64,000 nucleotides of DNA, taken from Paludibacter sp. GTDB lineage: Bacteria > Bacteroidota > Bacteroidia > Bacteroidales > Paludibacteraceae. Made by a program: the position numbers and the translations under genes. Positions 3,072-32,432 of this stretch are shown here, piece by piece. Under the pieces are notes generated by a model. That model did not search any database. It was not told the DNA's origin and saw only the letters and a list, made by a program, of their open reading frames with translations. The DNA lies in assembly GCA_019163375.1 (NCBI GenBank), contig JAFLKK010000007.1:531813-595812 (forward strand), in the 5' to 3' direction. The first letter of the stretch is position 1. Each line of letters opens with the position of its first letter.

Positions 3072-3077
3072 CATCGT

Positions 3078-7799: not shown

Positions 7800-7801
7800 A
7801 C

Positions 7802-7838
7802 AAAAACAGCTTGCCGATATCGGTAAGCTGTTTTTGTA
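7802..7838 (+). terminator. Intrinsic terminator after the response regulator
   Basis: AAAAACAGCTT and AAGCTGTTTTT flank the palindrome CCGATATCGG, with a T tract on the plus strand. The arms are A/T-rich at the base, so it could also stop transcription arriving from the minus strand. Confidence 0.85.
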
Positions 7839-8089
7839 ATATCGTTACGGCATAGTGCGATATAGATGCTGCATGATGCGATATAGGTTCTGCTTGGTGT
7901 GATATCGTTACTGCATGGTGAGATATGTGTTCGGCTTGATGAGATATCGTTACTGCATGATGAGATATCATTGCTGCATGATGCGATATAGGTTCGGCTT
8001 GGTGTGATATCGTTACTGCATGGTGAGATATGGGTTCGGCTTGATGCGATATCGTTACTGCATGATGAGATATCATTGCTGCATGGTGA
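7838..8089. repeat. Tandem array of twelve 21-bp units (array 1)
   Basis: Twelve contiguous units of exactly 21 bp with no spacers. Units begin GATAT(C/A/G) and end in a TGCATGRTGA-like block, and most carry GATATC or GATATA at the unit boundary. The first unit (7838-7858) is degenerate. Units 3-7 (7880-7984) and 8-12 (7985-8089) form a 105-bp higher-order duplication differing at about five positions. Because the period is a multiple of three, frames stay open; the minus strand reads as a heptapeptide repeat (ISHHAVT/ISHQAEP). The array lies between two converging genes, directly past the end of PUL1. Function unknown. Confidence 0.9.
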
Positions 8090-8106
8090 TTTGTACGTTC
8101 AGAAGA

Positions 8107-8919
8107 TTAGTGGGTTCTTTGAGCAATCCATTTTAGCAATAAAGGAAATGCCGGTTCGGTCATATTATGACCATAACCATCCAATTCATAGAGTGTCGTT
8201 TCTTTGTGTCCCACTACTTTCATCATGCGCATCAAATAAGCGTTTTCTTCGTACCTTCCCAGCATTTCCATCTCCCTGTCGCCGGTAATCAAGAGCATTG
8301 GCGATGCATCATTCCGAACATGAAACAGCGGAGCATACGCATCAACAACCGGTTGGGTATCGGCAATACCACGTTCTTTCCGAATGGTAAAATGCGTGAT
8401 GGTTTGAGCACTGAAGGGTATTAAACCTGCAATGCGGTTTGCATCGATACGATAGGCATTCAACCACTTTTTATCAAGACCAATCATACAGGTCAGGTAG
8501 CCCCCGGCCGAGTGACCCGACACAAAAATACGACTGGGATCACCATTGTACTTTTTGATGTTGTTGAACACCCAGGCAACTGCTGCTGCCGCATCTTCGA
8601 TGTAAGCCGGACAAACTACCTGCGGACTCAGGCGATAGCTTACTCCCACCACACAAAGGCCTTTTTTCTTCAAAGCTTCCGGAATTTCCTTAGTGCCACC
8701 GGTAAGTCCGCCACCGTGAAACCACACCACCGTTGTGAAGTTCTGTACATTGCGCGGATAATAAATATCCAGAACACAGTCTTTGCTCAACGATGCTTTA
8801 GAACGACCAACAGAATCGGTATAATAAGGAATATTTTGCAACGTGATATATTCATCTTTTTGTGCAAAGACAGTATGCCACATCATAAATAAGAGGCTTA
8901 TCAGTAGAAGCTTTTTCAT
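8107..8919 (-). CDS. Secreted alpha/beta-hydrolase esterase (lipase/carboxylesterase type)
   Basis: A 270-residue exported esterase with a signal peptide of about 19 residues ending VFA-QKD. The oxyanion-hole motif VWFHGGGL, nucleophile elbow GHSAGG (Ser about 136) and C-terminal catalytic His (GYGHNMTEP) are intact, as in the BD-FAE/hormone-sensitive-lipase-like esterases that remove acetyl or feruloyl groups from polysaccharides. It is the last gene of PUL1, 7 bp downstream of the GH5 gene, so co-transcription is likely and the substrate is probably an ester decoration of the PUL1 glycan. The reading frame continues in frame beyond the TAA into the 21-bp array, for about 110 codons. Confidence 0.88.
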   Translation of the reverse strand: MKKLLLISLLFMMWHTVFAQKDEYITLQNIPYYTDSVGRSKASLSKDCVLDIYYPRNVQNFTTVVWFHGGGLTGGTKEIPEALKKKGLCVVGVSYRLSPQVVCPAYIEDAAAAVAWVFNNIKKYNGDPSRIFVSGHSAGGYLTCMIGLDKKWLNAYRIDANRIAGLIPFSAQTITHFTIRKERGIADTQPVVDAYAPLFHVRNDASPMLLITGDREMEMLGRYEENAYLMRMMKVVGHKETTLYELDGYGHNMTEPAFPLLLKWIAQRTH

Positions 8920-8926
8920 TGAAATA

Positions 8927-10678
8927 TTATTTTATAGTTGAAAAACTCAGAGCGTTTATTTTCATACCCCCTTTGTCAATCATCAATTTGAAAGTATGTT
9001 TCCCTTTATCCAAAATGACCTTGCCAACAGAAACTGATTTCCATTGAGGCGCATTTTCTGCGGGGATAGAGATCGTGTTCGCTGCTATCTTATTGTCGAA
9101 AACAAGATGCAGACCTGAGGCCTGAGTTGACGGCAAGATACGCAATTGAATAGCATAATTGCTTTTTTTCTTCACATCCAACGTAAATTTCATCCATTCA
9201 CCATCTTCAGTCGACGAAACACTGTATTTGCAGGCACGATCGGTCGAATCGGTATTCATTTCAATGTCAACACCATCGTTACGATAGACACCACTTTTGT
9301 TACCTCCCGAAAGACCGGCCTTTCCATCAACCCGTTCGCTTTCCTTGTCGTAATACGCCTGACCCGATGCGCCCAAATCGAAATGAACAGCAAAGATACG
9401 TCCAGGAACCAAATTAGCGCCATACGCTTTGGTAGTACTGTCGTTTATTTGACGGAACATCGCATCAATCACTTCTTTGCGATAAACACAGTTTTGAGCT
9501 TTCAGGTTCTCTGTCAACTGCGATAGTACCTTGATAGAAAATTCTTTGGTTGGTTTTTCACCACCATTCCCCCAATAATTCAAGAGAGCTTCGTAGCCTT
9601 GGGGAGCTTGTACAGTTAGCGGATTGTTGATGCCCGTTATTTTCTTTAACGGCCACCACGACCATCCAATGCCATTGCTCTCAACCAGTGCTATACAATC
9701 GCGAAACCATTTATTGGAGTTCTCGCCACTCTCGCCCAACCAAAGCGGCATATTGAATTTATCGCGCAGTTTCAAAATTCCATCGAGACTCCCCTTTTCG
9801 TTCGAGTTCCAGTACTTATGAAAACTCAACACCATATTATTGTCGGACGGTCCTTCAAAACCATTGTAATTATTGCCCCAACCATTTCCTTCGATGATAA
9901 CGATGTGTTTGCTATCCACCTCGCGAATCGCCTTCGTGATGTCCACGTATAATTTCCACAAGTCTTTATTTTGTTGATCTTCAACACCATTTTTATGCTT
10001 TCCTTCAAATGTCCAGTTAGGCTCGTTCAATACATCATAAGCCCCGATAAACGGTTCATTGGCATAATGTTCGGCTATTTTACGCCAAAAAGCAATGATC
10101 TTTTGTTTGTTTTGCTCGCTTTCCCAAAGCGATGGTTTAGTGTCATCCCTATCCGAGATATTCGTGTCATTCCCTTGTCCGCCGGGTGCAGCATGCAAAT
10201 CAAGTATCAGGTACATATTGTTGGCTTTGCACCAACTCAATAAACTATCGGTCATAGCAAACCCTTTTTGCAACCAGGTATTGGTAGCCGGATTGGGTTC
10301 TTTTTCACTGGGTAACGTGTAGAGGTTGTAATGCATCGGCAACCGAATGCTGTTGAATCCCCATTTAGCCATTGAATCAACATCGGCTTTAGTCATTTGA
10401 TTTTTCAACCATTGATCATAGAAATGCTCACATTCTTCGTCGCCAATTAAATCGGCGATACGTGCTTTTATGGAGTGTTGCGTTCCAGTGCCGGGCATAC
10501 GTAGCATATATCCTTCCTGTAGCATCCAACCACCCAGTCCCATACCGCGAAGTATGATTTCCTTTCCTTTTGAATCTACAATTTTAGAACCGTCAGTCTT
10601 TAGATAACCCTCGGCAGATAGCGTTCCTTTGCCAAGTACAATGAGGCAAATAAGCAATAGCAACTGTTTTGTTTTCAT
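8927..10678 (-). CDS. GH5 family glycoside hydrolase with C-terminal carbohydrate-binding-like domain
   Basis: Secreted 583-residue enzyme with a signal peptide ending GTLSA. The GH5 (beta/alpha)8 barrel spans about 25-385, with the acid/base Glu in DVLNEPNW (about 219), the nucleophile Glu in LGESGEN (about 315), and the N-terminal RGMGLGGWM and FNSIRLPMHY motifs typical of endo-beta-glucanase/exo-glucosidase subfamilies. A roughly 150-residue beta-sandwich follows (about 430-583; VHFDLGASGQAYYD through DKGKHTFKLMID), resembling CBM6/CBM35-like modules. Likely a beta-glucan- or beta-mannan-type endohydrolase acting on the PUL1 backbone; the exact linkage cannot be read from sequence. It lies between the DUF2264 gene and the terminal esterase, in the same operon. 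Confidence 0.9.
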   Translation of the reverse strand: MKTKQLLLLICLIVLGKGTLSAEGYLKTDGSKIVDSKGKEIILRGMGLGGWMLQEGYMLRMPGTGTQHSIKARIADLIGDEECEHFYDQWLKNQMTKADVDSMAKWGFNSIRLPMHYNLYTLPSEKEPNPATNTWLQKGFAMTDSLLSWCKANNMYLILDLHAAPGGQGNDTNISDRDDTKPSLWESEQNKQKIIAFWRKIAEHYANEPFIGAYDVLNEPNWTFEGKHKNGVEDQQNKDLWKLYVDITKAIREVDSKHIVIIEGNGWGNNYNGFEGPSDNNMVLSFHKYWNSNEKGSLDGILKLRDKFNMPLWLGESGENSNKWFRDCIALVESNGIGWSWWPLKKITGINNPLTVQAPQGYEALLNYWGNGGEKPTKEFSIKVLSQLTENLKAQNCVYRKEVIDAMFRQINDSTTKAYGANLVPGRIFAVHFDLGASGQAYYDKESERVDGKAGLSGGNKSGVYRNDGVDIEMNTDSTDRACKYSVSSTEDGEWMKFTLDVKKKSNYAIQLRILPSTQASGLHLVFDNKIAANTISIPAENAPQWKSVSVGKVILDKGKHTFKLMIDKGGMKINALSFSTIK

Positions 10679-10735
10679 GTGTTTAGTGTGATTTTATATA
10701 CTTAATTCGGGTAAATATTATTTCAATACTTCAAC

Positions 10736-12784
10736 TTAATGATAGTCAATAATCTTTGTTGTATTATCGGTAAATGTAATTGTCAGTTTATCTGCCCTTG
10801 AAGAATCCAGCTTTTTCACCGGCATTAATTCTGTGGCAGTCCATTTCTCTCCGGATTTTTTCCAAAGCATGAGCGTGATGTACAGATTATCTTTTTTTGA
10901 ATCGGTAACAAACTGATCGATAACATTGATGACAGTGCTCTCGTCGGCAGCTGGATGTGAACCCCGCGAATGTACAAATTGCATTCCGTCCCAACCCTTC
11001 ATGTTCACCATAGCCAACTGGTAGACACCGTTATCTATGATTTTTACGTCGTATCCATTCACCTTACGAGTTTCTTCTTTGACTGGAGTTTGAAGTTTTG
11101 GCAAGGCATAATGCCCTAACCGAAGTTCAACCCTATCCGTACTGAGATTTTTATCCACTCTCATAATACCATTGGGAAGAGGAATATCAGCTAATTTGAG
11201 CCTGACTTGTTGGTTCGTTTCAAACACGGCATCGCGATAGTACACCCCATTTTCGAACTTGCGGAACGTAAACATTCGCAGTGGTTCCCATTGGTTTGTA
11301 TTGTTTTTCATCACATAGTTCATGGCCACATCTCCTTCTTTTCCATCCGTTTGCCACGGAAAAGCACTGTTGTAGGACAAGCGGTTATAGTTTTCGTTCC
11401 CACGATAGTTCTCGGTAGCAGTACCCTGCGGTGAATTGCACCAGGCCCTGATTTCAGCAGCTCCAATGTTGGGGTAATCAGTAATTAGAATATTTGACCC
11501 TTTCAGGTATTTATTGTTAACCGTGTTTTTCTTCAATTCCGTATTCCAGGCACCTTCATTCTCTGTTGCCTGCCAAAATGGATTATCCTCCGGAACCAAC
11601 AAGCCGAGAAAGGCCTTACCACACCAGAAAACACTACCACGGCAACTATAAGCCTGAACTGCTGTTTCGAACGGTCCGTAAAAACCCAATGTGGGTACAT
11701 TATCTTTCAAAAGTGATGGATTCTGGAGAAACTGTAACAGTCCTCCGGAAGCAATCCGGCGCATCCAACCATAATTCGTTTCGGGAGCACGCTCCAAACC
11801 CATTAGCGGAAAAGGTACCACCGCACCAAAACGGTACGAAATACTGCGTCCCCACATAATAAGTTCCCCCTTGCGGCTAAACATATACGGATAGCTATCT
11901 TTCACTGCTTTAAAATTATCGGCCAGTTGTTTAGCAATTTCCGGATAATTCTTTTTACCGTAGAAGTCCGACCACAACATGCCATACATCTGAAATGCCC
12001 ACATGCTGTAATAATCGTAAGACGGATTATCGTTGTACCATCCTTCGCCCCGATAATGCTGAAGTGTTTTTTGCAAATAGTCTGTCAGCAATGCATCATT
12101 TATAGTGTATCCACAGTTTTTGAAATAACTGAGGATAAAGATATTGAAAAACTTCCAGTTATTGGGATGAGTAGGACCATCTCCATAACTAAGCATGGTG
12201 ACTGCTAATGCATCTTTTTGAACTTGCGAAAGCGGTTTCCACAATAAATCGGGGATAATAAACATCGAAATAGAAAGTGCACCAAACTCTACCAAATTCT
12301 GGTGAGGTCCGGTATTCTTATCACGTAGTTTTATAAAACTTTCGCTCTGCGGGTCGACCAAGAGACTAATTTGATGACGATAATAATCGGCTACTTTTAT
12401 GCCGTTGATGGTCAGATTCGGATCTTCTTTCAGCAGCGGTGCAGCAATGAACAGTGTACGACAAAGTCCTTCCAGTTTCTCAGTTGGAACCTGTTCCGGA
12501 GTGCGAGGATAGCTTTTACCCTCCTGCTTCGGAAACTTCATCGGATCATCAAGGGTATGAATATAACTGAAAGCTCCTTTCAGCAGATACAACGCTGCAT
12601 CTTTCCAATGTTGGCGGGTCATTCCCGTATATGGACTTAGTATATAATCAGGTTTCTCAACCTGAAAGATGTTTTGAGATGTTTGTAATTCTGTCAAATT
12701 ATCCTTCCCGGTGACCGCCGCGAGAAGCGGTTGTAATACGAAGGATAAAAAACAGACGAAAAGAAAAGTTATTTTTCTTATCAT
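10736..12784 (-). CDS. DUF2264 protein (GH154-type putative beta-glucuronidase), copy 1
   Basis: Exported 682-residue protein with signal peptide (LQPLLAA). The whole length matches the DUF2264 family: MTRQHWKDAALYLLKGAF, the EKLEGLCRTLFIAAPLL block, PHQNLVEFGALSISM, and YDYYSMWAFQMYG form an alpha/alpha-toroid-like N-terminal half, followed by a beta-rich C-terminus. To my recollection, this family includes CAZy GH154, which contains a beta-glucuronidase from a Bacteroides arabinogalactan locus. That would fit the neighbouring GH88 and lyase genes, all acting on glucuronic acid. A close paralogue lies at 52642-54684 in PUL2. It sits 58 bp from the GH5 gene and 70 bp from the GH88 gene. Confidence 0.87.
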   Translation of the reverse strand: MIRKITFLFVCFLSFVLQPLLAAVTGKDNLTELQTSQNIFQVEKPDYILSPYTGMTRQHWKDAALYLLKGAFSYIHTLDDPMKFPKQEGKSYPRTPEQVPTEKLEGLCRTLFIAAPLLKEDPNLTINGIKVADYYRHQISLLVDPQSESFIKLRDKNTGPHQNLVEFGALSISMFIIPDLLWKPLSQVQKDALAVTMLSYGDGPTHPNNWKFFNIFILSYFKNCGYTINDALLTDYLQKTLQHYRGEGWYNDNPSYDYYSMWAFQMYGMLWSDFYGKKNYPEIAKQLADNFKAVKDSYPYMFSRKGELIMWGRSISYRFGAVVPFPLMGLERAPETNYGWMRRIASGGLLQFLQNPSLLKDNVPTLGFYGPFETAVQAYSCRGSVFWCGKAFLGLLVPEDNPFWQATENEGAWNTELKKNTVNNKYLKGSNILITDYPNIGAAEIRAWCNSPQGTATENYRGNENYNRLSYNSAFPWQTDGKEGDVAMNYVMKNNTNQWEPLRMFTFRKFENGVYYRDAVFETNQQVRLKLADIPLPNGIMRVDKNLSTDRVELRLGHYALPKLQTPVKEETRKVNGYDVKIIDNGVYQLAMVNMKGWDGMQFVHSRGSHPAADESTVINVIDQFVTDSKKDNLYITLMLWKKSGEKWTATELMPVKKLDSSRADKLTITFTDNTTKIIDYH

Positions 12785-12853
12785 GGTATTAGAATTTTAA
12801 TTCCACCAAGTTGTGGAATAATGGTTATTTTCAAGGTTGAAAAAAACGGAAAA

Positions 12854-14035
12854 TTATTTTTGAGTAAAGAAACGATTGTACCGCAACAAAGCCTCCAGGT
12901 AATAATAATCGGCATATACCAGCGGTGTGTTTATCTCCGATTTAGCCGGCTTATGCCCCACCGAATGTTTGAGAATAAAATAATTATTCTTGCCCAACTG
13001 TGCTTTATATTCGGGCGACGAAAGACTCTTCAGAATTTGCTCGGCAAAGGAAAAATACTTTTTCTTGTTTTCCGGACTATAATTACACAACTCCAAAAGT
13101 GCAGATGCATAAATTGCTCCGGCTGATGCATCCCGCTCTTCATTCGGAATATTGGGCGCATTAAAATCCCAATAAGGGATTTTGTCTTTTGGCAAATTAG
13201 GGTGATTCATTATAAAACCGGCGATACCCTCAGCTTGTCTCAGGTATTTCGGATCTTTGGTCTCGCGATACATCATGGTGTAACCATACAATGCCCAACC
13301 CTGTCCTCTGGCCCAGGCCGAACTATCATTAGCTCCCTGAACTGTACGCTTACTGTACACTTTCTCTCCTTCTTCGTAACCAACCAAATGATAGCTGCTA
13401 AAGTCAGGCCGAAAATGATTTTTCAACGTATTGTCGGCATGCTTTATGGCAATGTTATATAAGCTAGTATCATTCGAGTTTTTTGCCGCCCAAAGAAGAA
13501 ATTCCAGGTTCATCATGTTATCAATAATTACTGGGTATTTACAATCCTGAAATTGATTCCACGATTTTATAACACCATAAGCAGGATTAAAACGCGTAGC
13601 CAGTGATTTTGCACCGGTAAGCATAGGTTCAATATATTCCTTATTTTTGGTTAGTCGATAACCATTTCCAAAAGTGCAATACAGGATAAAGCCCAAATCG
13701 TGCGTTCCTTTGTTGTATTTCTCTTTTTCTACTGCCTTTGTCCAGATGTTTGCTGCATTTTTCCATTTATTATCGCCGGTAAATTCATAAATATACCACA
13801 ACGAACCTCCGAAAAAACCACTACACCACCAACCGGAGACGCGGTTATCGGGCGACCCATCGGGCTTGGTCGACTGCGGAAACTTAGTAACGTCAGGGTG
13901 CGACAATAACATGCCTTCGTACTGTTTAGCAGCAAAAGCAAATTCCTTTTTTACATCAACAACCGGCTTCTTTTGCGAAAATCCAACTTTGAACACCAGT
14001 AACAAACAAAATACGAGAATGAATTTCAATTTCAT
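12854..14035 (-). CDS. GH88 unsaturated glucuronyl hydrolase
   Basis: Exported 393-residue enzyme (signal peptide ending VGFSQ). The GH88 (alpha/alpha)6 barrel has the two conserved catalytic Asp residues in THDLGF (about 112) and IDNMMNLE (about 171), plus DSSAWARGQGWALYGYT, a family hallmark. GH88 enzymes hydrate the 4,5-unsaturated uronic acid left at the non-reducing end by polysaccharide lyases. That matches the lyase gene immediately upstream (34 bp away) and suggests the pair works in series in the periplasm. The neighbouring GH105 enzyme class is less likely because of the THDLGF and QGWALYG signatures. Confidence 0.92.
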   Translation of the reverse strand: MKLKFILVFCLLLVFKVGFSQKKPVVDVKKEFAFAAKQYEGMLLSHPDVTKFPQSTKPDGSPDNRVSGWWCSGFFGGSLWYIYEFTGDNKWKNAANIWTKAVEKEKYNKGTHDLGFILYCTFGNGYRLTKNKEYIEPMLTGAKSLATRFNPAYGVIKSWNQFQDCKYPVIIDNMMNLEFLLWAAKNSNDTSLYNIAIKHADNTLKNHFRPDFSSYHLVGYEEGEKVYSKRTVQGANDSSAWARGQGWALYGYTMMYRETKDPKYLRQAEGIAGFIMNHPNLPKDKIPYWDFNAPNIPNEERDASAGAIYASALLELCNYSPENKKKYFSFAEQILKSLSSPEYKAQLGKNNYFILKHSVGHKPAKSEINTPLVYADYYYLEALLRYNRFFTQK

Positions 14036-14068
14036 AGAGAGTTATTTTATGATTAAAAATACAATTTA

Positions 14069-15262
14069 TCAGAGGCTATACAACAACCAACAAATATCAT
14101 CCGGACTATTTTTATCCAATTTCACCCGCAGGGCTTCGTATTGCGGATTTCCACTGATAGATGAGAGTTTGCGAAGCTCTTCGCCAATCTGCACTTCCAC
14201 TACATCCCAATCGTGTATTTGTTGCCATTTCCACTCTGACTTTTTTCCAACATAGTTCGTCAGAAAATTAAGTCCGTTTACAATGCTCCGTCCATCGGAG
14301 GAAACCTCCTTCAATAAGTCAACGCCCTGATGTTTGGCAATAGCTGCCATATCTATCATGTGAGTAATATTGTACCACGAATAATGAAACGCAAGCGTGC
14401 GGGTTAATTCCTCAGGTTGCGAACCATCTGGCGTAATTTGAACAAAGATACGTTGTTGCGCGAAATTATGTATCTTTTCGAGTGCAATTTCTGGTCGACC
14501 TGAAAACAGTGCGCAAGCTGACAGTTGAACTTCATAAGCTGTGCCGTGATTATTTTTTGCCACAGCTTCATCTCTTCCGTTTTTACTTTCGAGCAGCCAG
14601 GTGGTAAAATCCGAAAACCATTTTTTCAAGCCTGCATATTGCGTTTTCGACAGCTCGCCCGAAGCATTTAATACGGTAATGGCATCCGTCAACGACACAA
14701 AATTATAAGTATCAATAATTCCATATCCACGACCGGTACTTCTGCCAGGAACGTGCTGTGCAAAATCCAGATTTGGATTCATGCGCGTAGCCGGATTCAG
14801 AAACCAGGTATCCAAAAGCTCCGCAGCACGGCGACTGTACTTTTTATCTCCCGAAAAATAGCCGGCCAGCGTCATGCTAACCACGCCATCAATCATAGCC
14901 GTTTTGGGCTCTGCATCGTATTGTTTTAGTTCCGGATTACGTTGACCATCCTTGTTGATGTACGGTAACCCATCTTTGCTATCCGGATTTGGCCAAAAAT
15001 AAATAGCCAGACTCATATAATCGTGCTTATTTCCACTGGCCGGAGCCTTTACTTTATCCATCACCGTGGCATAATGAGCCACAAGAGCTGATTCTGCCTT
15101 TTTAATCAGCGCATCATAAGCCGGTTGATATTGAGGTAAATGAATAGATTTCTTTACTTTACCGAGCTTTTGGCTATCCCATAAATTTGTAGCAAGAGGG
15201 AGTGATACTGCTTGTAGTACTGAGACAAAAAGCAACAAAAAAAGGACATGTATTTTTTTCAT
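14069..15262 (-). CDS. Alginate-lyase-fold polysaccharide lyase (PL38-like, uronate/glucuronan lyase)
   Basis: Exported 397-residue protein with an N-terminal signal peptide. The DYMSLAIYFWPNPDSKDG, DGQRNPE and KNNHGTAYEVQ motifs, plus FHYSWYN, identify the alginate_lyase (PF05426) alpha/alpha-toroid family. The layout agrees best with PL38, whose characterised members cleave glucuronan or mannuronan. The Asn-His of NNHG and the Tyr of HYSWYN are the probable neutraliser and catalytic base/acid. It would generate unsaturated uronates for the downstream GH88. This gene is the strongest clue that the PUL1 substrate has a beta-linked uronic acid backbone or long uronate side chains. The family assignment is firm; the exact substrate is inferred. 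Confidence 0.88.
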   Translation of the reverse strand: MKKIHVLFLLLFVSVLQAVSLPLATNLWDSQKLGKVKKSIHLPQYQPAYDALIKKAESALVAHYATVMDKVKAPASGNKHDYMSLAIYFWPNPDSKDGLPYINKDGQRNPELKQYDAEPKTAMIDGVVSMTLAGYFSGDKKYSRRAAELLDTWFLNPATRMNPNLDFAQHVPGRSTGRGYGIIDTYNFVSLTDAITVLNASGELSKTQYAGLKKWFSDFTTWLLESKNGRDEAVAKNNHGTAYEVQLSACALFSGRPEIALEKIHNFAQQRIFVQITPDGSQPEELTRTLAFHYSWYNITHMIDMAAIAKHQGVDLLKEVSSDGRSIVNGLNFLTNYVGKKSEWKWQQIHDWDVVEVQIGEELRKLSSISGNPQYEALRVKLDKNSPDDICWLLYSL

Positions 15263-15291
15263 TTTATATTATTACAAACAAGTTAAGAGAA

Positions 15292-16197: not shown

Positions 16198-16209
16198 TGA
16201 TTAAAATTA

Positions 16210-16866: not shown

Positions 16867-16904
16867 ATTATTCATTTTTAAATATTTATTCGTAATCTAA
16901 CTAA

Positions 16905-16964
16905 AAAATATTGCGCTGATGTAAAAAGGAAATAAAACTTCCTAACTTCTACATCAGCAGCAAT
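16905..16964 (-). terminator. Terminator-like hairpin inside PUL1 (between GH30 and SGNH genes)
   Basis: On the minus strand a stem pairs ATTGC-GCTGATGTA with its complement, with an inner GGAA/TTCC, and is followed by a T-rich run (ATTTTTTAG). It lies in the 226-bp gap after the GH30 stop. No clear Bacteroidota promoter was found between it and the next gene, so partial read-through is expected. Confidence 0.6.
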
Positions 16965-17092
16965 ACCAACCATCTTAATTAAAAACAACAACATTCTTTT
17001 TTAAACCTAAACTATCCCAACCAAAATCAACTTAAATAAATCATGTGATAAATTCTGTAATCCGGTTACTTGTGAAACGAATCATCTTTTAT

Positions 17093-18553: not shown

Positions 18554-18640
18554 ATTTAATATATTACCTTGATAACTAACACTATGATAAAAATATAATA
18601 TCTCTTGAATTTTATACATTGATAAATAAGCTCCCTTACC

Positions 18641-18685: not shown

Positions 18686-18714
18686 ATTGGGGGTTACTAA
18701 CTTATTTTTATCAA

Positions 18715-20409: not shown

Positions 20410-20438
20410 ACTATCTTCGATTTATTATTGATATTTGA

Positions 20439-23291: not shown

Positions 23292-23326
23292 TTTTTTCGA
23301 TATTAATTGAATAGAAACACCTATGA

Positions 23327-25159
23327 TTACCAACCCGGATTTTGACCGTTCCAATCTTTATTTCCAAGATATTTTTTGCTGATTTCAGCATTGGAGAATG
23401 GCAAATAATAATACCTCTGCGGAAAGATCCGGTTTATAAATAATCCGGTTACCCATGGACGAGTCAATGCACCACTTACCTTTTTGGCAGTGGTTACAAT
23501 ACCATGCAGCTGTTGGTTCAGCACTTTAGGGGCTGTCAACCAGCGAAGCAAATCGTTGTATCTATTATTTTCGTAGGCTAGTTCAATGGTTCGTTCGTTT
23601 TGAATGGCAGCACGGAAACCAACCTGATCCAGACCGGCTTTGTTGGGCATGCCCGCTCTGCTGCGAATGATATTCATCGCGTCGTAAGCTGCCTGCGAAG
23701 GACCACTGTATTCATTCATTGCTTCCGAATAGCTCAGGTAGAATTCGGCCAACCGGAATACCGGCCAGGTAAAATGTTTTGTATTCATTGCATCTACACG
23801 TGGTGTAAATTTGAATACTTCCACTGCAAAACCATTGGGTGTTCCATCAGTACCGCACAATTTACCTTCGGGGTAACCATCACCTGCTTTGTAATAATCC
23901 AGGTAGCCTTTTTTGGCACAATAAAACATGCCGTCGTAAGCTATTGTCTGATAAAAACGGGGATCAAGATTTAATGCCATGATATCTGTCGGCAGATTGG
24001 TTCCGCTAGCCGGAAGTGTCCATTTTGTGCCATCTTTCTTTTCGTACAATTGCAGGAACTCATTCGGCACGTTGTTTTTTATACCCCAACTCGAATAGAA
24101 AATCTTTGAAGACATATACAACGACCATGAATCGGCACCCCAAGCGCTTGGAGATTCTATACTTTTGGTGTTGGCAAGAATGATTTCGGAGTTTCCATAT
24201 ACATTCCATACCGACTCATAATCACCCAGCGTTGCATAAGTTTCGCCGGTTGTAAGCGGTTTTCCGGTATTAAATAAACTGATCCCGGCAGTAGCTGCAT
24301 TATCGAGAACGGCTTTCGAAGCATCAGCTGCCAGTTTCCAACGTTCGATATCGTAGGTTGGGTAACAAAGCACAGAGTCTCTGGCATCACCAAAGCGGGC
24401 ACCGGTAAGTTCAGCTTTCAAATTCTCGGGCGTATTGTACTGCGGACTGGCAGCGAATAACAGCACGCGGGCTTTCAATGCCAATGCAGCAAGTTTGGTT
24501 GCTTTTCCAAAATCAACCGTTGTACGTGTTTCCGGCAAAAGAGCAGCTGCGTCGTCGCACCATTTTACGATGGTTTCTACAACAGCTTTTATCGAACGTC
24601 TCGGGTAGTTGATATCATCTCCTTGCAAGGAGTGATCGACCAAAGGAATTCCACCATAGTATCTGAACAATTCATAATGTTGCAATGCTCTGCAGAAAAT
24701 AGCCTGTCCCTTTACATCATTCTTCCATTCATCGGTTGCATCAGCTACTTTGTCGATATTTTCCAATACAAGATTTGCATGACGGATACCATTGTAGTGC
24801 GAACTATAGCCGCCGTAATCGCAGTTGGTTTCGGTGCTCATGTTTCCGGTTACATAATACTGTGTATTAATCACCTGACCGGCCCATGTGTCATTCGAAC
24901 CGTGAAGTAGGTATAACTCGTCGGTAATTGACTCCGGTCTTGATCCCGGAGAGTCGTAGGGGAAATAGCCTTTCACACAAGTATTGTACATCTGTGCCAC
25001 AGCCAGTCGGGCCTGGTTCTGCGTATGAAAAATGGTATCTGTAGTTACAGCTCCACCTTTTGGTTTTTCTAGAAAATCGTCACTACAACCGGTGGTGCTT
25101 AAACACAGCAGTGTAACTATAGCCACGGTGGAAATGATCGTTGTTAGTATTTTATTCAT
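23327..25159 (-). CDS. SusD/RagB-like glycan-binding lipoprotein (pair 1)
   Basis: Outer-membrane lipoprotein of 610 residues with lipobox STTGC (Cys about 25) followed by SDDFLEKPKGG, a typical start for SusD proteins. The helical repeats, the IQNERTIELAYENNRYNDLLRW motif region near the C-terminus and the closing YYLPFSNAEISKKYLGNKD match RagB/SusD. It is 27 bp downstream of its SusC and 35 bp upstream of the second SusC start, an uninterrupted operon. Surface glycan capture; substrate shared with the PUL1 enzymes. Confidence 0.94.
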   Translation of the reverse strand: MNKILTTIISTVAIVTLLCLSTTGCSDDFLEKPKGGAVTTDTIFHTQNQARLAVAQMYNTCVKGYFPYDSPGSRPESITDELYLLHGSNDTWAGQVINTQYYVTGNMSTETNCDYGGYSSHYNGIRHANLVLENIDKVADATDEWKNDVKGQAIFCRALQHYELFRYYGGIPLVDHSLQGDDINYPRRSIKAVVETIVKWCDDAAALLPETRTTVDFGKATKLAALALKARVLLFAASPQYNTPENLKAELTGARFGDARDSVLCYPTYDIERWKLAADASKAVLDNAATAGISLFNTGKPLTTGETYATLGDYESVWNVYGNSEIILANTKSIESPSAWGADSWSLYMSSKIFYSSWGIKNNVPNEFLQLYEKKDGTKWTLPASGTNLPTDIMALNLDPRFYQTIAYDGMFYCAKKGYLDYYKAGDGYPEGKLCGTDGTPNGFAVEVFKFTPRVDAMNTKHFTWPVFRLAEFYLSYSEAMNEYSGPSQAAYDAMNIIRSRAGMPNKAGLDQVGFRAAIQNERTIELAYENNRYNDLLRWLTAPKVLNQQLHGIVTTAKKVSGALTRPWVTGLFINRIFPQRYYYLPFSNAEISKKYLGNKDWNGQNPGW

Positions 25160-25186
25160 ATCTGGTATTTTTTTTTAAGTGTAGTA

Positions 25187-28100
25187 TTAAAAGTTAACAT
25201 TAAGACCTAAGTTATACGTTCTGATAAGTGGATAGCCGTTATTCCCTAAGTTTTCGGGATCTCCCCAGATTTTATTACCTGAGAAAGTGAGTAGGTTCGA
25301 TCCATTCAAATAGATACGGGTAGAACTGATTCCCAGTTTTTTCATAAACGAAGGCTGAACTGTGTATCCCACTTCCATGTTTTTCAGACGAACATACGAA
25401 GCATCTTTCAGAAAGTAGGTGTTGTAACCGGCAGAACTATTATAAGCAGCAATAGGGAATTGAATATCTTCTCCATTAGCACTTCTTTCTAATGTAAAAC
25501 GGCTTAGTCCTACTTCGGTGATGGCTTCCAGGTTGTTGAACGGGCGGGTAGCTATGTAGCGATTCACACCAGAAATACCTTGAAGTAAAGCAGAGAAATC
25601 GAAGCCTTTATAGCCAAATCCAAACGAAAGCCCAAAAGTAAATTCAGGGATATTGGTTTTACCGATACGGATATTATCTTTCTTGTCAATCACACCATCC
25701 TGGTTGATATCTTCGAAACCAATTTCCCCCGGCTGCAATACAGCACCATTGTATCCTAAATCTTTTTCGTATACCGGGTTGCCTGCAGTATTTTTATACG
25801 GTTGTCCGGTTTTATCCAAAGCCAGTACGGGGCTCGACAATACCGGATTTCCGGTTGCATCTACCTGATATAAATCAGCCCATGAGTTGTACAGCCCTTT
25901 ATCTTTAAGCATCAACAGTTGATTGATAGGTCGGCCGGTAGCCGATTGATATTCCAGTCCATCAGCAATGGCCTCGTCCATAAACACAATTTTATTTTTG
26001 TTGTGCGACAGATTTCCTTTTATCCAATAATTAAACTTGCCAAAATTGCTTCTCCAATTCATTTCTAACTCCCAACCCCAGTTTTTTACGCTACCCAAAT
26101 TGTAAGGAGGCAAAGTGGCTTGTACTATATTAGGAATCGTTTGTTTGTTGGAAAGGATGTCCACACGACTTTCGCTGAAATAATCGAAGGTGGCCGACAG
26201 TTTGCTGTGAAACAATTTTGTTTCGAAACCGAAATTACTTTTTGTAGCTGTTTCCCAGGTTACATTCGGATTACCGACTGTTCCTTCTTCGGCACCACCT
26301 ACCCAGTTGCGGTCTGCCAGTGTTCCAAAGTTATATCCTCCTGTATAGTTCCATGTGTTTGGTAAATACAGATAGCGTTTCGAAACACCATTCACAATCA
26401 CATTATCATTACCCACTTTACCTACCGAACCGCGGAATTTCAAATACGTAACAATATCGCTTTTTGGGAAAAATGCTTCGTTTGAAGCCACCCAACCGAG
26501 TGAATACGCCGGTAAGAATCCGTAACGCAATCCTTTAGGGAAGTTTTCGGAACCATTGTATCCCATATTAAATTCGGCAAGGTACCGGCCATCATATCCA
26601 TAAGTTGCACGTCCCACCATACCCAGGTAAGCATGAGGGAGATCAGGAGTTAATGAGGGATCGTATTTTTTTTCGATATTGTAAAGTACCAATCCGCCTA
26701 CATCATGTTTTCCAAACGAATGGTTGTAGTTCAACGAACCCTCGCCATACACTTTTCTCCATTTGGTTACATACCAGCTGGCCCAACGTTCCGGTGGAAT
26801 CTCTTCGCTCATCTGCGAAAAAACAGGATCCATCACATTTCCATTGGGGTTAGGAGATATTTTATACCACAGAGGAGTACTATCGCCACCATCGCGTGTG
26901 CGGAAATAGCTATCGTAGGCCACTCGTGCATTAATCGACAATCCGTCTAAAAGTCTGTCCAGTTTGTATCTCAGTTTCAACGACGATGTCATGGTACTTT
27001 TAATGGTATTGTTATAACCCATACCGGCAATTTCTTCCAGTGGATTTTCACCAATCTTAGTATTGGTATACGGCATCACAAATTTACCGTTCACTATACC
27101 CGGCGTAGTAATGGGGTTACTCCACATGATACGCTTTTCCCACATCCAACCTTCGTTGTCCAGGTTCAATCCTCCCTGCACTTCGTGCTGATAGCCCAGG
27201 TCTACCGACACACGAAAGTCTTTATTGATATCGAAGTCAAAGTTTCCACGAATATTGTATCGTTTGTTGGAATATTCCATGTCATCCGGAAATTCCATAT
27301 AGTCGGTTTTAAACATACCGTTTTGATCCAGATACCCCAGCGAAACAAAGTACTTCATGCTCTCGGTACCACCGTTGATGTTTAAGTTTACCTGACTTTG
27401 GTAGGATTGTTTTTTGAAGATACGACTTTGCCAGTCGGTATCGGGGTGAAAGTAAGGATCGTAGTTCGGATTTGTTTGTCCGTTAGCCAAAAGAGGGGTA
27501 CGGGCATTTTTATATTTCAACAAATCATCATCCGAGTAATAGTGAGCTGCTTCTTTTGTCCAGTTCGCTTCTCTTTTGGTTACAAAATCGGCCCAGGTAG
27601 CAATATCGGCATCTTTTGCGTGATTGATCCAATAGGTTTCGAAACTCTTTTCGTTTTGCAATGAGGCATATTCGAAAGAGTTTACAAAGTTGGGCAATCC
27701 GGTAAATTCATTTACAGCTGTTTGTGCCGACAAACTGATTTTAGGAGCACCTGCTTTACCACGTTTGGTAGTGATTAAAACCACACCATTCGCACCACGT
27801 ACACCGAATACGGCTGTAGCCGATGCATCTTTCAGAATACTGATGGTTTCAATTTCGTTCGGGTCGATATTATTGTAACTATCGCGTGCCACACCGTCCA
27901 CCATTACAAGCGGACTTACTGAACTAGAATAGGTTCCCACACCGCGAATGTACAGATCAGAAGCATCAGCCCCCGGTTTTCCCGAGTTTTGTACGGTGAT
28001 AAGACCGGATAATCGTCCGGCTAATGAGTTACTGATATTCGCCGTTGGCGATTGTACCAGCTCTTTGGCGGCAACAGTAGAGATAGCAGCCGTAACCGAC

Positions 28101-28444
28101 TCTTTTTTCTGACTACCATAACCCACTACCACTACTTCGTTCAGACCTGTCGACGTTTCTTGCATTACAATTCGCAATGAAAGTTGATCGCCAATGACTT
28201 TTTCAACTTTGTCGTACCCAAGATAACTGAATACAAGGGTCTTTTGAGCCGGGTTAGCCAGATTCTTAACGACAAATTTGCCATTAATATCCGTTGAACA
28301 ACCCAACGATGTGCCCTTAACTAAGACGGTTACTCCCGGCAATGGTAAAGCCTTTGAATCAACTACCACTCCGGAAATGTTCTGAGCCATTACTTTGCCT
28401 ATAGCAAACATAACAATCAAAACAATAATCACTCGTTTCTTCAT
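25187..28444 (-). CDS. SusC-like TonB-dependent outer-membrane transporter (pair 1)
   Basis: 1085 residues, full length. Signal peptide (IGKVMA-QN), carboxypeptidase-regulatory-like domain (ISGVVVDSKALPLPGVTVLV, about 22-95), TonB box region EVVVVGYGSQKK (about 105), plug (NSLAGRLSGLI, DLYIRGVGTYS, GVRGANGVVLITTKRG), then a 22-strand barrel ending YNLGLNVNF. It imports oligosaccharides across the outer membrane with the following SusD. First gene of PUL1, transcribed away from the sensor-regulator gene 455 bp away. The canonical N-terminal features contrast with the second SusC of the same operon. Confidence 0.95.
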   Translation of the reverse strand: MKKRVIIVLIVMFAIGKVMAQNISGVVVDSKALPLPGVTVLVKGTSLGCSTDINGKFVVKNLANPAQKTLVFSYLGYDKVEKVIGDQLSLRIVMQETSTGLNEVVVVGYGSQKKESVTAAISTVAAKELVQSPTANISNSLAGRLSGLITVQNSGKPGADASDLYIRGVGTYSSSVSPLVMVDGVARDSYNNIDPNEIETISILKDASATAVFGVRGANGVVLITTKRGKAGAPKISLSAQTAVNEFTGLPNFVNSFEYASLQNEKSFETYWINHAKDADIATWADFVTKREANWTKEAAHYYSDDDLLKYKNARTPLLANGQTNPNYDPYFHPDTDWQSRIFKKQSYQSQVNLNINGGTESMKYFVSLGYLDQNGMFKTDYMEFPDDMEYSNKRYNIRGNFDFDINKDFRVSVDLGYQHEVQGGLNLDNEGWMWEKRIMWSNPITTPGIVNGKFVMPYTNTKIGENPLEEIAGMGYNNTIKSTMTSSLKLRYKLDRLLDGLSINARVAYDSYFRTRDGGDSTPLWYKISPNPNGNVMDPVFSQMSEEIPPERWASWYVTKWRKVYGEGSLNYNHSFGKHDVGGLVLYNIEKKYDPSLTPDLPHAYLGMVGRATYGYDGRYLAEFNMGYNGSENFPKGLRYGFLPAYSLGWVASNEAFFPKSDIVTYLKFRGSVGKVGNDNVIVNGVSKRYLYLPNTWNYTGGYNFGTLADRNWVGGAEEGTVGNPNVTWETATKSNFGFETKLFHSKLSATFDYFSESRVDILSNKQTIPNIVQATLPPYNLGSVKNWGWELEMNWRSNFGKFNYWIKGNLSHNKNKIVFMDEAIADGLEYQSATGRPINQLLMLKDKGLYNSWADLYQVDATGNPVLSSPVLALDKTGQPYKNTAGNPVYEKDLGYNGAVLQPGEIGFEDINQDGVIDKKDNIRIGKTNIPEFTFGLSFGFGYKGFDFSALLQGISGVNRYIATRPFNNLEAITEVGLSRFTLERSANGEDIQFPIAAYNSSAGYNTYFLKDASYVRLKNMEVGYTVQPSFMKKLGISSTRIYLNGSNLLTFSGNKIWGDPENLGNNGYPLIRTYNLGLNVNF

Positions 28445-28666
28445 TGTATACTATTTATGTCTTCCCTTTTTTTGTGTTTTTGATGATATGGGTTGACTGG
28501 TTAATAAAAAAATAATAATTGGTTAATCTATTTGCGTGTTTTTGAATTGCCTTTTTTGTGTAATAAGTAGTGCGGATATATTTCATTATCTCTTCATACC
28601 CCCCATATTCAAATAAATATTAATAAATGTATTAAATACACTTGGTGTCGTTTAAACAATTTGACG

Positions 28667-28674
28667 CAAATATA
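28667..28674 (-). promoter_or_regulatory. Candidate -7 box of PUL1 SusC promoter
   Basis: TATATTTG on the minus strand matches TAnnTTTG. No TTTG lies 19-21 bp upstream, so the promoter probably needs an activator, plausibly the divergent regulator. Confidence 0.45.
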
Positions 28675-28836
28675 TTTCGATTCATCCTATATCCTTTCAT
28701 TTCCTACCTCTACAAAAACTATATGATGAAGATACAGCACCTATATTACAGCTCTACATCGCTTTACTTATTTAGCTTAAAAACAGACAGATGAAAATAT
28801 ATTTTCCCTTTTATTTATTCTTTGTACTAAAAAACA

Positions 28837-28844
28837 TATCTTTG
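28837..28844 (+). promoter_or_regulatory. Candidate -7 box of the regulator gene
   Basis: TATCTTTG matches TAnnTTTG, with a predicted start near 28851 and a leader of about 50 nt. A TTTG at 28821-28824 is too close to act as the standard -33 element. Confidence 0.45.
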
Positions 28845-28899
28845 TACACACTACATCGCACCAGAAAGTCACAAACGAATCTTAATACCAAAGAGCAAT

Positions 28900-31758
28900 A
28901 TGGCACGCCGCACAATGCTTAGCATAATTAGCATGTTTTTACAATTGAGCATCTGTATTTTTGCAGGTGTGGAGAAAATTGAGAACATATGCATCCCTAA
29001 AATCACTAATTTTGATAAGGGCACCTACAATGCCGGTAGCAAAATATGGTACGTAGCTCAAAATAAAAAGGGATACCTTTACTTTGCAAATGCTTCCGGA
29101 TTGCTGGAGTATGATGGTAGTCAGTGGACCAATAACTCGCTACCCCAACGCTGGTCTATGATTCGCTGCATTGCCATTGCCGATGATCAGAAAATCTATA
29201 CAGGTTCTCAAAACGAATTTGGATATTGGCTGGAGCATCCCATCACGGGCAAGTTGCAATACTTCTCCCTTTCCGACCGGTTCAGGCTGAAGCTGAAAGA
29301 AGAAGCAGTCTGGAAAATCATTATGCTGGGCGATGAGGTCTTTTTCCGCACCTACAAGAATATCTACAGATACAATACAAAGGCCAATACAATATCCATT
29401 ATTGTGGCTCCCCACCGCTTCCAGTTTATCTTTGAAGCCAATAAACGGGTATTTGTGCAGGAAAAAGAAATAGGGCTGATGGAGTTAAAGGATAATAAAC
29501 TGGTGGCTCTTGCCGGTGGAGATGTTTTGCACGGCGACTGCGTGTATGGAATGATACCCTTATCGCCCACATCCATCCTCATAGCCACTATCGACAAAGG
29601 ATTGTATCGTATTGACAATAATATAGTCACCAAATGTACCTTTCCCTGCGATGCTTTCCTTACAAAAAATCAGGTTTTTAGCCTTTGTTTATTGCCCAAC
29701 GGACGCATTGCTTTTGGCACTATCCTCAATGGTTTGCTTATTACCGACCACAATGGCAACATACTCTCCAATATCAACAAGCAAAAAGGACTGGCAAACA
29801 ATACGGTACTTAGCATTTTCTGCGATAAAAACGAGAACCTGTGGCTTGGACTCGACATGGGAATAAGCCATATACAGATAAACAGCCCCATCCGTAACTT
29901 CCCCGACCCGAATGGTTTGCTGGGCTCGGTGTACGACGTGAAGGAATACAATGGACGCCTTTATTTTGCCACCAATCAGGGACTCTATTATAGCTCTACC
30001 GCCGACCTGGCCTACCCCGACCGCGAACAGCGCTTTACCCTGTTGCCCAACACTCAGGGACAGGCATGGGAACTGCAAAGAGTTGGCAATCTGCTGTTTT
30101 GCTGCCACAACAAAGGTATATTTCTGATAAACGGAACGCAGGTGACCCATGTGTACAAAGGAAGCGGTGCCAATCATATGGTGGAGATAAATGATAAAAC
30201 GGCGGCATTCTCTACCTACGAGGGATTGTGCATACTAAAAATACAAGGTGCTGCTTTTTCGGTGAAGAAATATCCCGAATATCCCTATTATGCCAATTAC
30301 CTGGCAAAGGATAAAAACAACCGTGTATATATCGGCAATAATAATCCAGTAGGTATTTTCCGGTTCAGCTTTGATCCCGACTTTGACAAGATAGTGTCTA
30401 CCCAAAATAAAATAGGAACCGTAAACCTCAATAATACCAACCTTAAGGGTATCTACTCCGATCGCAACAACTTGTACCTGTTGGAAAAATCGGGCATTCT
30501 TAAATACAATGCTACAGCGGATCGTTTTGTGCCCGACGCAACTTTAAACCGCCTGATTCCCAAAGACAGCAGTATCAACCGCCTCCAGTTTACCAACCAC
30601 GATATGTGGTGTTATACCGCCGACCGCTTCTTCTGTATTCGCAACTACGACCAGCCATCGGCCTATCTGCTCACCCGCAACATGGAGTCATTGTACAATC
30701 AGGTGGTGAATACCAACGAGAATATTCTGAACATTGCACCCAATAAGTACCTGGTGTGTACCTCCAATAGTTTCTCGGTGCTCAACACCACCGATTTCGG
30801 AAAGAAAACAAGAAAGTTGCAGGTCTATATCCGCGACATTGGTACTTTTACCAACAAGATGCACTCGCTGGAGCTTAAAAACCCAATGGCGTACTATGCC
30901 AAACACACTATCGAATTTCCGAACAATCATTCCACCATTTTCATTCGGTTCACCCTGCCCTATTACGAAAATGCCGAAAAAATACGGTATAGCTATCGCA
31001 TAAAGGGAAGTTTCGACAATTTCTCCATCCCCTCGCAAAGCAGCATGATTACCTTTCCACATCTGCCTTCGGGGAATTATGTTTTTCAGGTAAAAGCCAC
31101 TATCGATGGTACCAACGAAGTATATTATTCGCAGGACTTGCTGATTCGCATCCTCCCACCCTGGTACCTGGGTTGGATGGGCTATGTATTGCTATTTTTA
31201 CTGCTCTGCGGTGCGGCTTATCTGCTCAACATGTACCTCAAAACCAGGCTGCAACGGCAAAAAAGCCGTATTGCCAACGAATACGAGAAGGAAATGGCAA
31301 AAATGGAGAACAACATATTGCAGGAACAAGTACGCCTACAAAACGAAGAGTTGTTGCGAATAACAAAGACCATGTTGCGCAAAAACAAACTGATGAACAA
31401 ACTGGATACCGAGATTCTGAAGATGTCGGAAAATAAATCCATCCCTGCCATCAACCTGCGCGGACTAAAAGCCATAGTGGAGATCAATAAAAATCCCGAA
31501 GAAGAATGGAAAATCTTCGAGATGAGTTTCAACAATACCTACAATAATTACCTGGTGAACCTCAGTAACCGTTTCCCCAGCCTGACCACTTCCGACCTCA
31601 AGCTGGCGGCGTATATTCGCATGAATATCTCTTCCAAAGAAATTGCCTCGCTGCTCAATATCTCCCTCAAAAGTATAGAGATGGCTCGCTACCGGCTTCG
31701 CAAAAAACTGGAGATAGAACACGAACAAAACCTGACGGCTTTTTTAATGAGTATTTAA
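28900..31758 (+). CDS. Transmembrane sensor-regulator: beta-propeller / Y_Y_Y / LuxR-type HTH
   Basis: 952-residue membrane-spanning regulator. A signal peptide or anchor (MLSIISMFLQLSICIFAG) is followed by a periplasmic sensor of Reg_prop-like beta-propeller repeats (about 40-640) and a Y_Y_Y domain (about 690-750; IRYSYRIKGSFDNFS). One membrane helix follows (about 758-778), then a long cytoplasmic coiled coil (about 785-850) and a C-terminal LuxR/GerE-type HTH (about 895-950; SSKEIASLLNISLKSIEMARYRL). Unlike hybrid two-component systems it has no kinase or receiver domain, so signal transfer must be direct, probably through coiled-coil dimer rearrangement. It is divergent from the PUL1 SusC and is the obvious candidate activator of that operon, with an oligosaccharide of the target glycan as ligand. 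Confidence 0.92.
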   Translation: MARRTMLSIISMFLQLSICIFAGVEKIENICIPKITNFDKGTYNAGSKIWYVAQNKKGYLYFANASGLLEYDGSQWTNNSLPQRWSMIRCIAIADDQKIYTGSQNEFGYWLEHPITGKLQYFSLSDRFRLKLKEEAVWKIIMLGDEVFFRTYKNIYRYNTKANTISIIVAPHRFQFIFEANKRVFVQEKEIGLMELKDNKLVALAGGDVLHGDCVYGMIPLSPTSILIATIDKGLYRIDNNIVTKCTFPCDAFLTKNQVFSLCLLPNGRIAFGTILNGLLITDHNGNILSNINKQKGLANNTVLSIFCDKNENLWLGLDMGISHIQINSPIRNFPDPNGLLGSVYDVKEYNGRLYFATNQGLYYSSTADLAYPDREQRFTLLPNTQGQAWELQRVGNLLFCCHNKGIFLINGTQVTHVYKGSGANHMVEINDKTAAFSTYEGLCILKIQGAAFSVKKYPEYPYYANYLAKDKNNRVYIGNNNPVGIFRFSFDPDFDKIVSTQNKIGTVNLNNTNLKGIYSDRNNLYLLEKSGILKYNATADRFVPDATLNRLIPKDSSINRLQFTNHDMWCYTADRFFCIRNYDQPSAYLLTRNMESLYNQVVNTNENILNIAPNKYLVCTSNSFSVLNTTDFGKKTRKLQVYIRDIGTFTNKMHSLELKNPMAYYAKHTIEFPNNHSTIFIRFTLPYYENAEKIRYSYRIKGSFDNFSIPSQSSMITFPHLPSGNYVFQVKATIDGTNEVYYSQDLLIRILPPWYLGWMGYVLLFLLLCGAAYLLNMYLKTRLQRQKSRIANEYEKEMAKMENNILQEQVRLQNEELLRITKTMLRKNKLMNKLDTEILKMSENKSIPAINLRGLKAIVEINKNPEEEWKIFEMSFNNTYNNYLVNLSNRFPSLTTSDLKLAAYIRMNISSKEIASLLNISLKSIEMARYRLRKKLEIEHEQNLTAFLMSI

Positions 31759-31863
31759 AGAAGGGGGAGTTTTGCCAAAGGCTATTGTTATTCATTTACA
31801 GCACTTTACAAAAACAACGTTCCACAAAATCTTCCGGACAGATGACCTTGGAGTTATAACAAA

Positions 31864-32115
31864 GGACTTTGTAGTTTCTTCAAAGCACATTTCTATTTCT
31901 TCGAGGTACATTTTTATTCCTACAATGTACTTTTCTATTCCTATAATGTACATTTCTATTTCTATAAAGTACATTTCTATTTCTATAAAGTACATTTCTA
32001 TTTCTATAAAGTACATTTCTATTTCTTCAAGGTACATTTCTATTCCTATAAAGTACATTTCTATTTCTTCAAGGTACCTTGTAGTTTCTCCAAGGTCCTT
32101 TGTTGTCATAAAAAA
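31864..32115. repeat. Tandem array of twelve 21-bp units (array 2)
   Basis: Eleven recognisable 21-bp units plus a degenerate twelfth, contiguous. The core unit is GTACATTTCTATTTCTATAA plus one A; three identical copies stand at 31948-32010. Boundaries carry the palindrome GTAC. The outer units (31864-31884 and 32074-32094) share a different inner sequence, TTGTAGTTTCT, so the array has similar edges around a homogenised centre. The period leaves frames open on both strands: the plus strand reads ISISIKY, the minus strand YFIEIEM. It begins 105 bp after the regulator stop. Same period and same extent as array 1, but a different sequence. Confidence 0.9.
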
Positions 32116-32400: not shown

Positions 32401-32432
32401 GAGCTGATTTTAATTAAAAATAAAGATAAATC

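Follow-up and report, generated by a model that had tools for sequence, protein, structure and literature searches.

Two tandem arrays with a 21-bp period beside a polysaccharide utilization locus of Paludibacter sp. are probably independent members of a genus-common class of non-coding minisatellites

The BrickBuilt element of Porphyromonas gingivalis is described as a miniature inverted-repeat transposable element (MITE) with an internal 23-nucleotide (nt) minisatellite, whose leader and tail drive lacZ in Escherichia coli (Klein et al. 2015, PMC4596501). PgRS/MITE464 of the same species appears in the same text as a MITE-like element with internal 41-nt tandem repeats (PMC4596501). The present analysis concerns two tandem arrays with a period of 21 bp in a 64,000-nt stretch of a Paludibacter sp. 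draft genome (contig JAFLKK010000007.1; hereafter the window, whose numbering is used), called array 1 (left) and array 2 (right), which are both intergenic and lie directly outside positions 8107-31758, i.e., the polysaccharide utilization locus (PUL) PUL1 and its regulator. Repeats of the REP (repetitive extragenic palindromic) and BIME (bacterial interspersed mosaic element) type are short units scattered between genes, whereas the arrays treated here are long, run head-to-tail at a fixed pitch of 21 bp, and palindromes are not general among them.

The nearest known design to the element that carries array 2 is the BrickBuilt MITE, with which it shares being a dispersed intergenic Bacteroidales element with an internal minisatellite free of spacers, a leader and a tail, short terminal inverted repeats, and a variable number of units (PMC4596501). 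BrickBuilt units are 23 nt long and of one family, whereas the units here are 21 bp long and of unrelated families; the inverted-repeat ends of the array-2 element (AACAAAGGACYTTGKAG) are, by eye, unlike those in Table 2 of PMC4596501; and a promoter-like module, predicted only, is common here to elements with different arrays. PgRS/MITE464 can be likened by its description only, arrays of 41 bp being present in this genus as well, whereas those of the window have a period of 21 bp. No description of a class of 21-bp arrays was found in the literature searched, which mostly left out subscription papers, and the combination of one pitch with many unrelated sequences, repeatedly paired with one promoter-like module, seems to be new.

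We consider it probable that the two arrays belong, independently of each other, to a class of non-coding 21-bp minisatellites common in the genus, and that they flank PUL1 by coincidence. They are laid out as follows.

7839..8090, no strand assigned: array 1, exactly twelve 21-bp units resembling ATATCGTTACTGCATGRTGAG, with higher-order periods of 42/63/105 bp (Tandem Repeats Finder (TRF) and unit layout)
31852..32114, no strand assigned: array 2, about ten good 21-bp units (AAAGTACATTTCTATTTCT..) and degenerate end units (TRF)

TRF recovered both of the arrays that the preliminary description had placed just outside 8107-31758. Array 1 was detected at 7839-8088/8089 (period 21, best score 424, higher-order periods 42, 63, and 105), and its unit layout, which ends at 8090, covers exactly 12 × 21 = 252 bp. 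Array 2 was detected at 31852-32114 (period 21, best score 290, higher-order period 63) with 10.4 units in the best 21-bp TRF row (31859-32077), and its degenerate outer units together form a terminal inverted repeat. The twelve units over 252 bp proposed for both arrays accordingly hold for array 1 and not for array 2, and 252 bp is not a fixed length, since the arrays in the two further members of the array-2 family measure 157-178 bp (about 7-8 units).

A survey of tandem arrays (length ≥ 80 bp, period ≥ 10 bp) covered samples, not whole genomes, comprising 700 kb of the 4.66 Mb of the window's own draft genome (G000, with contigs C1, C2, C3, and so on), 400 kb of the 3.69 Mb of G016, and about 350 kb from five other congeners; the sample from elsewhere consisted of 80 named extracted loci (L numbers), one of which (L118) possibly comes from a close relative, together with six genomes of other families and further material of one of these, and gene calls were plain open reading frames (ORFs). 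On C1:1-700,000, a period of 21 bp, a multiple of it, or a 10/21 mix was found in 13/19 arrays; the same class made up 5/11 arrays in G016 and 4/6 in the five other congeners (one of these a 14/21 mix). The total of 22/36 arrays in the genus compares with 1/26 elsewhere (Fisher P = 1.7e-6), the single one lying in a metagenome-assembled genome labelled Prevotellaceae, and removal of three arrays in long ORFs left 19/33 in the genus (P = 7.8e-6). Lengths in the 21-bp class ranged from the 80-bp threshold up to 461 bp.

This common period is found in units of unrelated sequence. Among 16 unit families, the best circular match averaged 9.97 of 21 positions versus 9.95 for shuffles, and the units are regarded as unrelated because their best matches equal those of shuffles; the same comparison bears out the statement that arrays 1 and 2 have no sequence in common. 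The sole exception is array 2 and an array of the congener G019 (15/21), and common ancestry of all units, which was considered, gave no signal beyond this pair. Most sampled tandem arrays of the genus hence have a period of 21 bp or its multiples though their units are unrelated.

Other pitches were also seen. A second array class with a period of 41 bp is present in the genus (L090:475-693, L204:4334-4512, L104:3867-3952, L112:4420-4503, L116:6116-6489, and L353), L090 and L353 lying about 1 kb upstream of the attC-like sites treated below, and a period of 23 bp, the unit length of BrickBuilt, occurs in several arrays in samples from other Bacteroidales (L118:2413-2518, L238:8231-8298 and 9647-9736, L251:161-235), so that the pitch may be lineage-specific.

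TRF alignments of 30 arrays of the 21-bp class contained about 639 mismatches and about 21 indel bases, compared with 230 mismatches and 34 indel bases in 12 genus arrays of other periods not divisible by three (P = 1e-7), i.e., indels within arrays were depleted about 4.5-fold; outside the genus, the indel ratio was 0.10-0.16. The unit length of the class is a multiple of 10.5 bp with the phase kept (21/42 bp, few indels), and some arrays of the genus have units of 41 bp. Two C1 arrays (L206:10279-10497 and L210:5742-6202) are built of a sub-repeat that alternates between 11 and 10 bp, so that a half unit averages 10.5 bp; as a general rule this sub-repeat was rejected, most other arrays lacking a clear one. 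A shared period and few indels despite many substitutions fit a constraint on spacing rather than on sequence, and to this extent the earlier suggestion of selection on spacing stands, although as a fit and not as a proof.

A palindrome in every 21-bp unit, which had been reported for both arrays, was not confirmed. Shuffled units yielded dyads as good as the best one in either consensus unit (P = 0.94 for array 1 and 0.79 for array 2); GATATC is present in 6/12 units of array 1, and GTAC occurs nine times in array 2. As RNA, array 1 folds worse than its own shuffles (z = +2.2), and array 2 does better than its shuffles (z = −5.9), the inverted-repeat ends being paired. Four of 23 consensus units, neither of them from the window, exceeded shuffles in palindromicity (P < 0.05); the combined P of 0.004 over all 23 indicates that some families are palindromic, and palindromes or hairpins as a common principle were dropped because only these four stood above shuffles.

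Each window array has a dispersed family of its own. Copies of the array-1 family lie at C3:383k and C13:62k, where array-1-like units continue in phase into a second type of 21-bp unit, and a fragment lies at C1:567k. Copies of the array-2 family are found at C1:72.9-73.1k and C12:79.2k, leader and tail being common to all three and the outer flanks unrelated; identity between the elements on C12 and C1 is 92% over 574 bp, and that of the window element to either is about 75% over about 480 bp. The two arrays are different in kind: array 1 is a bare dispersed array, and array 2 lies inside a dispersed element with a promoter-like module, which is composed as follows.

31785..32420, + strand: whole dispersed element with leader, array 2, tail, and promoter-like module (copies at C12:79k and C1:72.6-73.2k)
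31858..31874, + strand: left terminal inverted repeat, AACAAAGGACTTTGTAG (score 24, reached by 0.7% of random intervals)
32088..32104, − strand: right terminal inverted repeat, reading AACAAAGGACCTTGGAG on the − strand
32331..32420, + strand: conserved 90-bp module with TTG (32370-32372) and TACCTTTG (32393-32400) as a promoter-like pair, TTG-N20-TACCTTTG

The arms of the inverted repeat measure 17 bp (P of about 0.007 in array 2 and about 0.001 in the other two family copies). Array 2 is thus the internal array of a dispersed element bounded by inverted repeats, the right part of which is a promoter-like module that recurs before other genes. A homology search of 60 genomes (the own genome, 35 congeners, and 24 of other families; E ≤ 0.001) matched array 1 to its own genome only and array 2 to its own and four others, with a true related array in G019 and short matches in G016, G001, and G050. 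Spread on phages or plasmids was considered and not upheld: neither array matched phages, and among plasmids the array-2 element matched two Vagococcus records (75 bp at 79.5% identity).

The module closes the array-2 element, taking up its final 90 bp some 220 bp downstream of array 2 and just before the ORF at 32433, and its TTG/TACCTTTG pair presumably corresponds to the Bacteroidetes −33/−7 consensus. In G000, copies were located at window positions 32331-32420, at C1:72.6k, 141.7k, 190.7k, and 754.5k, at C2:256.0k, at C8:103.8k and 129.3k, and at C12:79.5k. Together with an imperfect palindrome (CCTAAAGTGGAAATATG...GTTA), which at copies of the module mostly lies between module and gene, they define 13 sites in this genome, nine with the module, eleven with the palindrome, and seven with both; one site in G063 and two in G016 bring the total to 16. 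The genes behind the module sites differ, one starting with a TIR-domain-like part (by eye) and one having a partial Stk2 match. The window copy of the module has no such palindrome.

An array was counted as upstream if it had a TRF score of 50, a period of 21 or 42 bp, and a length of at least 60 bp, and ended at most 500 bp upstream. By this rule, 9/16 module/palindrome sites had an array, compared with 0.88% of random C1 positions and 7/264 gene starts with intergenic DNA in front. The 16 sites were found by similarity searches that started at array 2; hence, the array-2 family was dropped in a second count, which left 6/13 after removal of its three sites (P = 5e-7). Addition of two weaker C1 palindromes from a profile search (457.5k and 496.4k), both without arrays, gave 9/18, or 6/15 without the array-2 family (P = 1.4e-6). 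The seven misses among the 16 comprise two sites with 41-bp arrays, one with a 21-bp array about 1 kb upstream, and four without an array of this size. Two further array loci with the palindrome, L082 (G016) and L214 (flanks in common with L217), point in the same direction and stand outside the 16, as they were reached via their arrays. Elsewhere, too, the promoter-like module hence often has a 21-bp array upstream whose units are visibly different in sequence (not every pair was formally compared).

The position of the two arrays at the ends of PUL1 is most likely a coincidence. Ten non-coding loci counted with a 60-bp threshold in the first 700 kb of C1 correspond to 0.91 expected per 64 kb, so that two or more in one window have a Poisson probability of 0.23. 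No SusC-like gene occurs within 12 kb of any of these ten loci, compared with 18% at random, and the sampled scan for period 21 showed arrays at many non-PUL sites, which argues against the PUL-border or domain-boundary role put forward in the preliminary description. Neighbours of the arrays are mixed and include GH30, GH36, GH26, and GH2 enzymes, an M28 peptidase, OstA-like and BrkB proteins, as well as a zinc dehydrogenase, a ClC channel, KAS III, a glycosyltransferase, and a LuxR regulator. The surroundings of the two arrays in the window are as follows.

6648..7799, + strand: sigma-54-type response regulator, left of array 1
7801..7836, no strand assigned: A/T-flanked inverted repeat at the 3′ end of the response-regulator gene (from direct sequence reading, not a terminator scan)
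28900..31758, + strand: PUL1 regulator with Reg_prop, Y_Y_Y, and a sub-cut-off LuxR-type helix-turn-helix (HTH), left of array 2
32433..32933, + strand: 166-aa ORF directly behind the module, no Pfam match

The inverted repeat reads as a putative terminator of ORF 6648-7799, and array 1 begins immediately 3′ of it; array 2 is flanked by the PUL1 regulator and the 166-aa ORF. The response regulator is present in 48/48 genomes of the genus. Thirty of its loci were compared, 29 of them from other genomes, and were followed for about 1.5 kb or to the contig end: within this range, none of the 29 has a 21-bp array of the size of array 1, so that the site of array 1 is not conserved at these loci, and none has the PUL-side esterase gene. 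One of them (L278) has a 46-bp stretch of 14/21-bp period, and the gene upstream of the response regulator is syntenic at 22/29. As an observation in its own right, window positions 7800-8107 downstream of the response regulator form an apparent synteny breakpoint in the genus, the esterase adjoining only here among the 30 loci. Of the other array-2 copies, that on C1 lies by a LuxR gene, whose one homologue found in a congener (45% identity) has no array nearby at its own locus; the second is flanked by genes that match no Pfam family. The only Rfam match in the window, to the Bacteroidetes FopS paralogous small RNA family at 3076-3159 and barely above the gathering score, is unrelated to the arrays.

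Several results weigh against the proposed explanation. The contrast in indel ratio between the 21-bp class (0.033) and other sets is smaller for arrays of the genus with triplet periods (0.053) and vanishes for 41-bp arrays (0.035), and TRF scoring itself penalises indels. Support for helical phasing is weak: the 10.5-bp rhythm of conservation along the unit reached P = 0.08, a 7-bp rhythm was nominal (P = 0.045 among ten periods tested), and identity at lag 10 gave a Fisher P of 0.03 with 3/16 families below 0.05. A 3-bp rhythm of conservation was absent (P = 0.34); a separate test for coding rhythm, which also showed none, has low power, given that 1/3 long-ORF control arrays reached P < 0.05. 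Of the ten C1 loci, 6/10 have no detected module or palindrome, or 7/10 if L214, which is known by flank similarity only, is left uncounted. Array 1 has no terminal inverted repeats above chance (P of about 0.95), no flanks in common with its C3 and C13 copies, and no promoter-like module; for the array-2 element, no target-site duplication was evident with boundaries drawn by eye.

On the proposed explanation, units would be gained, lost, and homogenised in place by slippage or unequal recombination, so that the sequence would drift while the pitch of 21 bp, i.e., two helical turns of B-DNA, would be retained. Comparison of the arrays at C2:256k and C1:190k by eye, in which the end units are similar and the centre of one has switched to another 21-bp unit, suggests such sequence turnover at constant pitch. 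The array-2 element might act as a movable upstream region that supplies a promoter to the neighbouring gene, its array offering repeated protein contacts along one face of the helix, and array 1 would be a satellite of this type that lacks the promoter-like module. Of the possible functions, such a placing of contacts on one helix face by the two-turn pitch of a movable upstream region appears to us the likeliest. A bolder version, which we regard as rather unlikely, holds that Paludibacter has movable promoter platforms: an array of free sequence and 21-bp pitch would precede a conserved promoter by about 165-495 bp, in most cases together with an attC-like palindrome at which accessory genes are taken up, and selection would act solely on the two-turn pitch, read by a protein that senses periodicity or DNA shape and is indifferent to sequence.

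Neutral drift is a serious rival to the spacing model and, in our judgement, quite possible if on balance the less probable of the two. It holds that the arrays are minisatellites without function, whose 21-bp pitch is passed on along old families and by spread in phase, with no selection on spacing. The turnover in place at C2:256k and C1:190k is equally in line with it, as is dispersal both with and without flanks. The unit families are unrelated, however, so that the pitch would have to outlast a complete replacement of sequence, and both the depletion of indels in the 21-bp class and the repeated co-location with the promoter-like module speak against it.

Quite unlikely, in our estimate, is an integron-like remnant, in which array and promoter would be the platform, the palindrome an attC/attI-like site, and the gene behind it a cassette. 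The boxes of attC sites read RYYYAAC and GTTRRRY. Several array loci resemble integron attC sites and CALINs (clusters of attC sites lacking integron-associated integrases) in that an imperfect palindrome ends in a GTTAG-type box before an accessory gene, the genes behind the sites differ, and similarity between copies fades behind the GTTA box (by eye). The palindrome, aligned from seven full-length copies over 91 columns, folds with 25 pairs, four of them with two-sided changes; its covariation term, however, is unfavourable (+1.89), the first box reads CCTAAAG rather than ..AAC, and GTTRRRY occurs in some copies only. No integron integrase exceeded the TIGR02249 cut-off in the 48 genomes of the genus, a search run without a positive control, 14 control genomes likewise giving none. 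The clear sites on C1 are single and tens of kb apart, and no cassette array with several sites in a row was seen there; the window itself has no palindrome. In view of these results, the palindrome is called attC-like and not attC. Separately, proteins of 520-608 aa in congeners (G032:C1, G015:C430, G070:C5, and others, L321-L329) match the integron-integrase model in two gapped parts below the cut-off.

A coding origin as heptad repeats (21 bp = 7 codons, e.g., a peptide EIEKYFx from the − strand of array 2) is very improbable. A − strand frame does stay open across each of the three array-2 copies, and metagenomes contain six predicted proteins of similar sequence (P0001-P0006) with EIExYxx heptads, which read through array-2-like arrays with 6-8 units each of drifted sequence (manual count), so that unit number varies. 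The reading was rejected mainly because the copies on C12 and C1 differ least at third codon positions (9, 11, and 2 changes at codon positions 1, 2, and 3), which also makes the metagenome ORFs unlikely genes. The ORF of the C1 copy runs antisense into the LuxR gene, and all six metagenome proteins end in a near-identical stretch that is antisense to this gene in the C1 copy; they look like spurious ORFs running antisense through array-2-like elements into the LuxR gene. The ORF of array 1 starts inside the array and has no relative at E ≤ 1, and several arrays have stops in all six frames.

Least credible is that the two arrays were selected as border or insulator elements to delimit PUL1, for which may be cited their place just outside either end of 8107-31758, the C3 copy of array 1 at 96 bp from a GH30 gene, and the PUL-side gene missing at the 29 other response-regulator loci, so that PUL and array could have arrived together, but against which the chance expectation, the absence of SusC-like genes within 12 kb of the ten C1 arrays, and the sites of the other array-2 copies speak.

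One exact pitch, kept by unrelated non-coding sequences within a genome, would, if true, offer a clear example from nature of selection that acts on DNA spacing and not on sequence, and because the arrays are associated with a recurring promoter-like module and with accessory genes, this idea is directly testable. For protein databases, the arrays mean that 21-bp repeats can generate spurious heptad-repeat "proteins".

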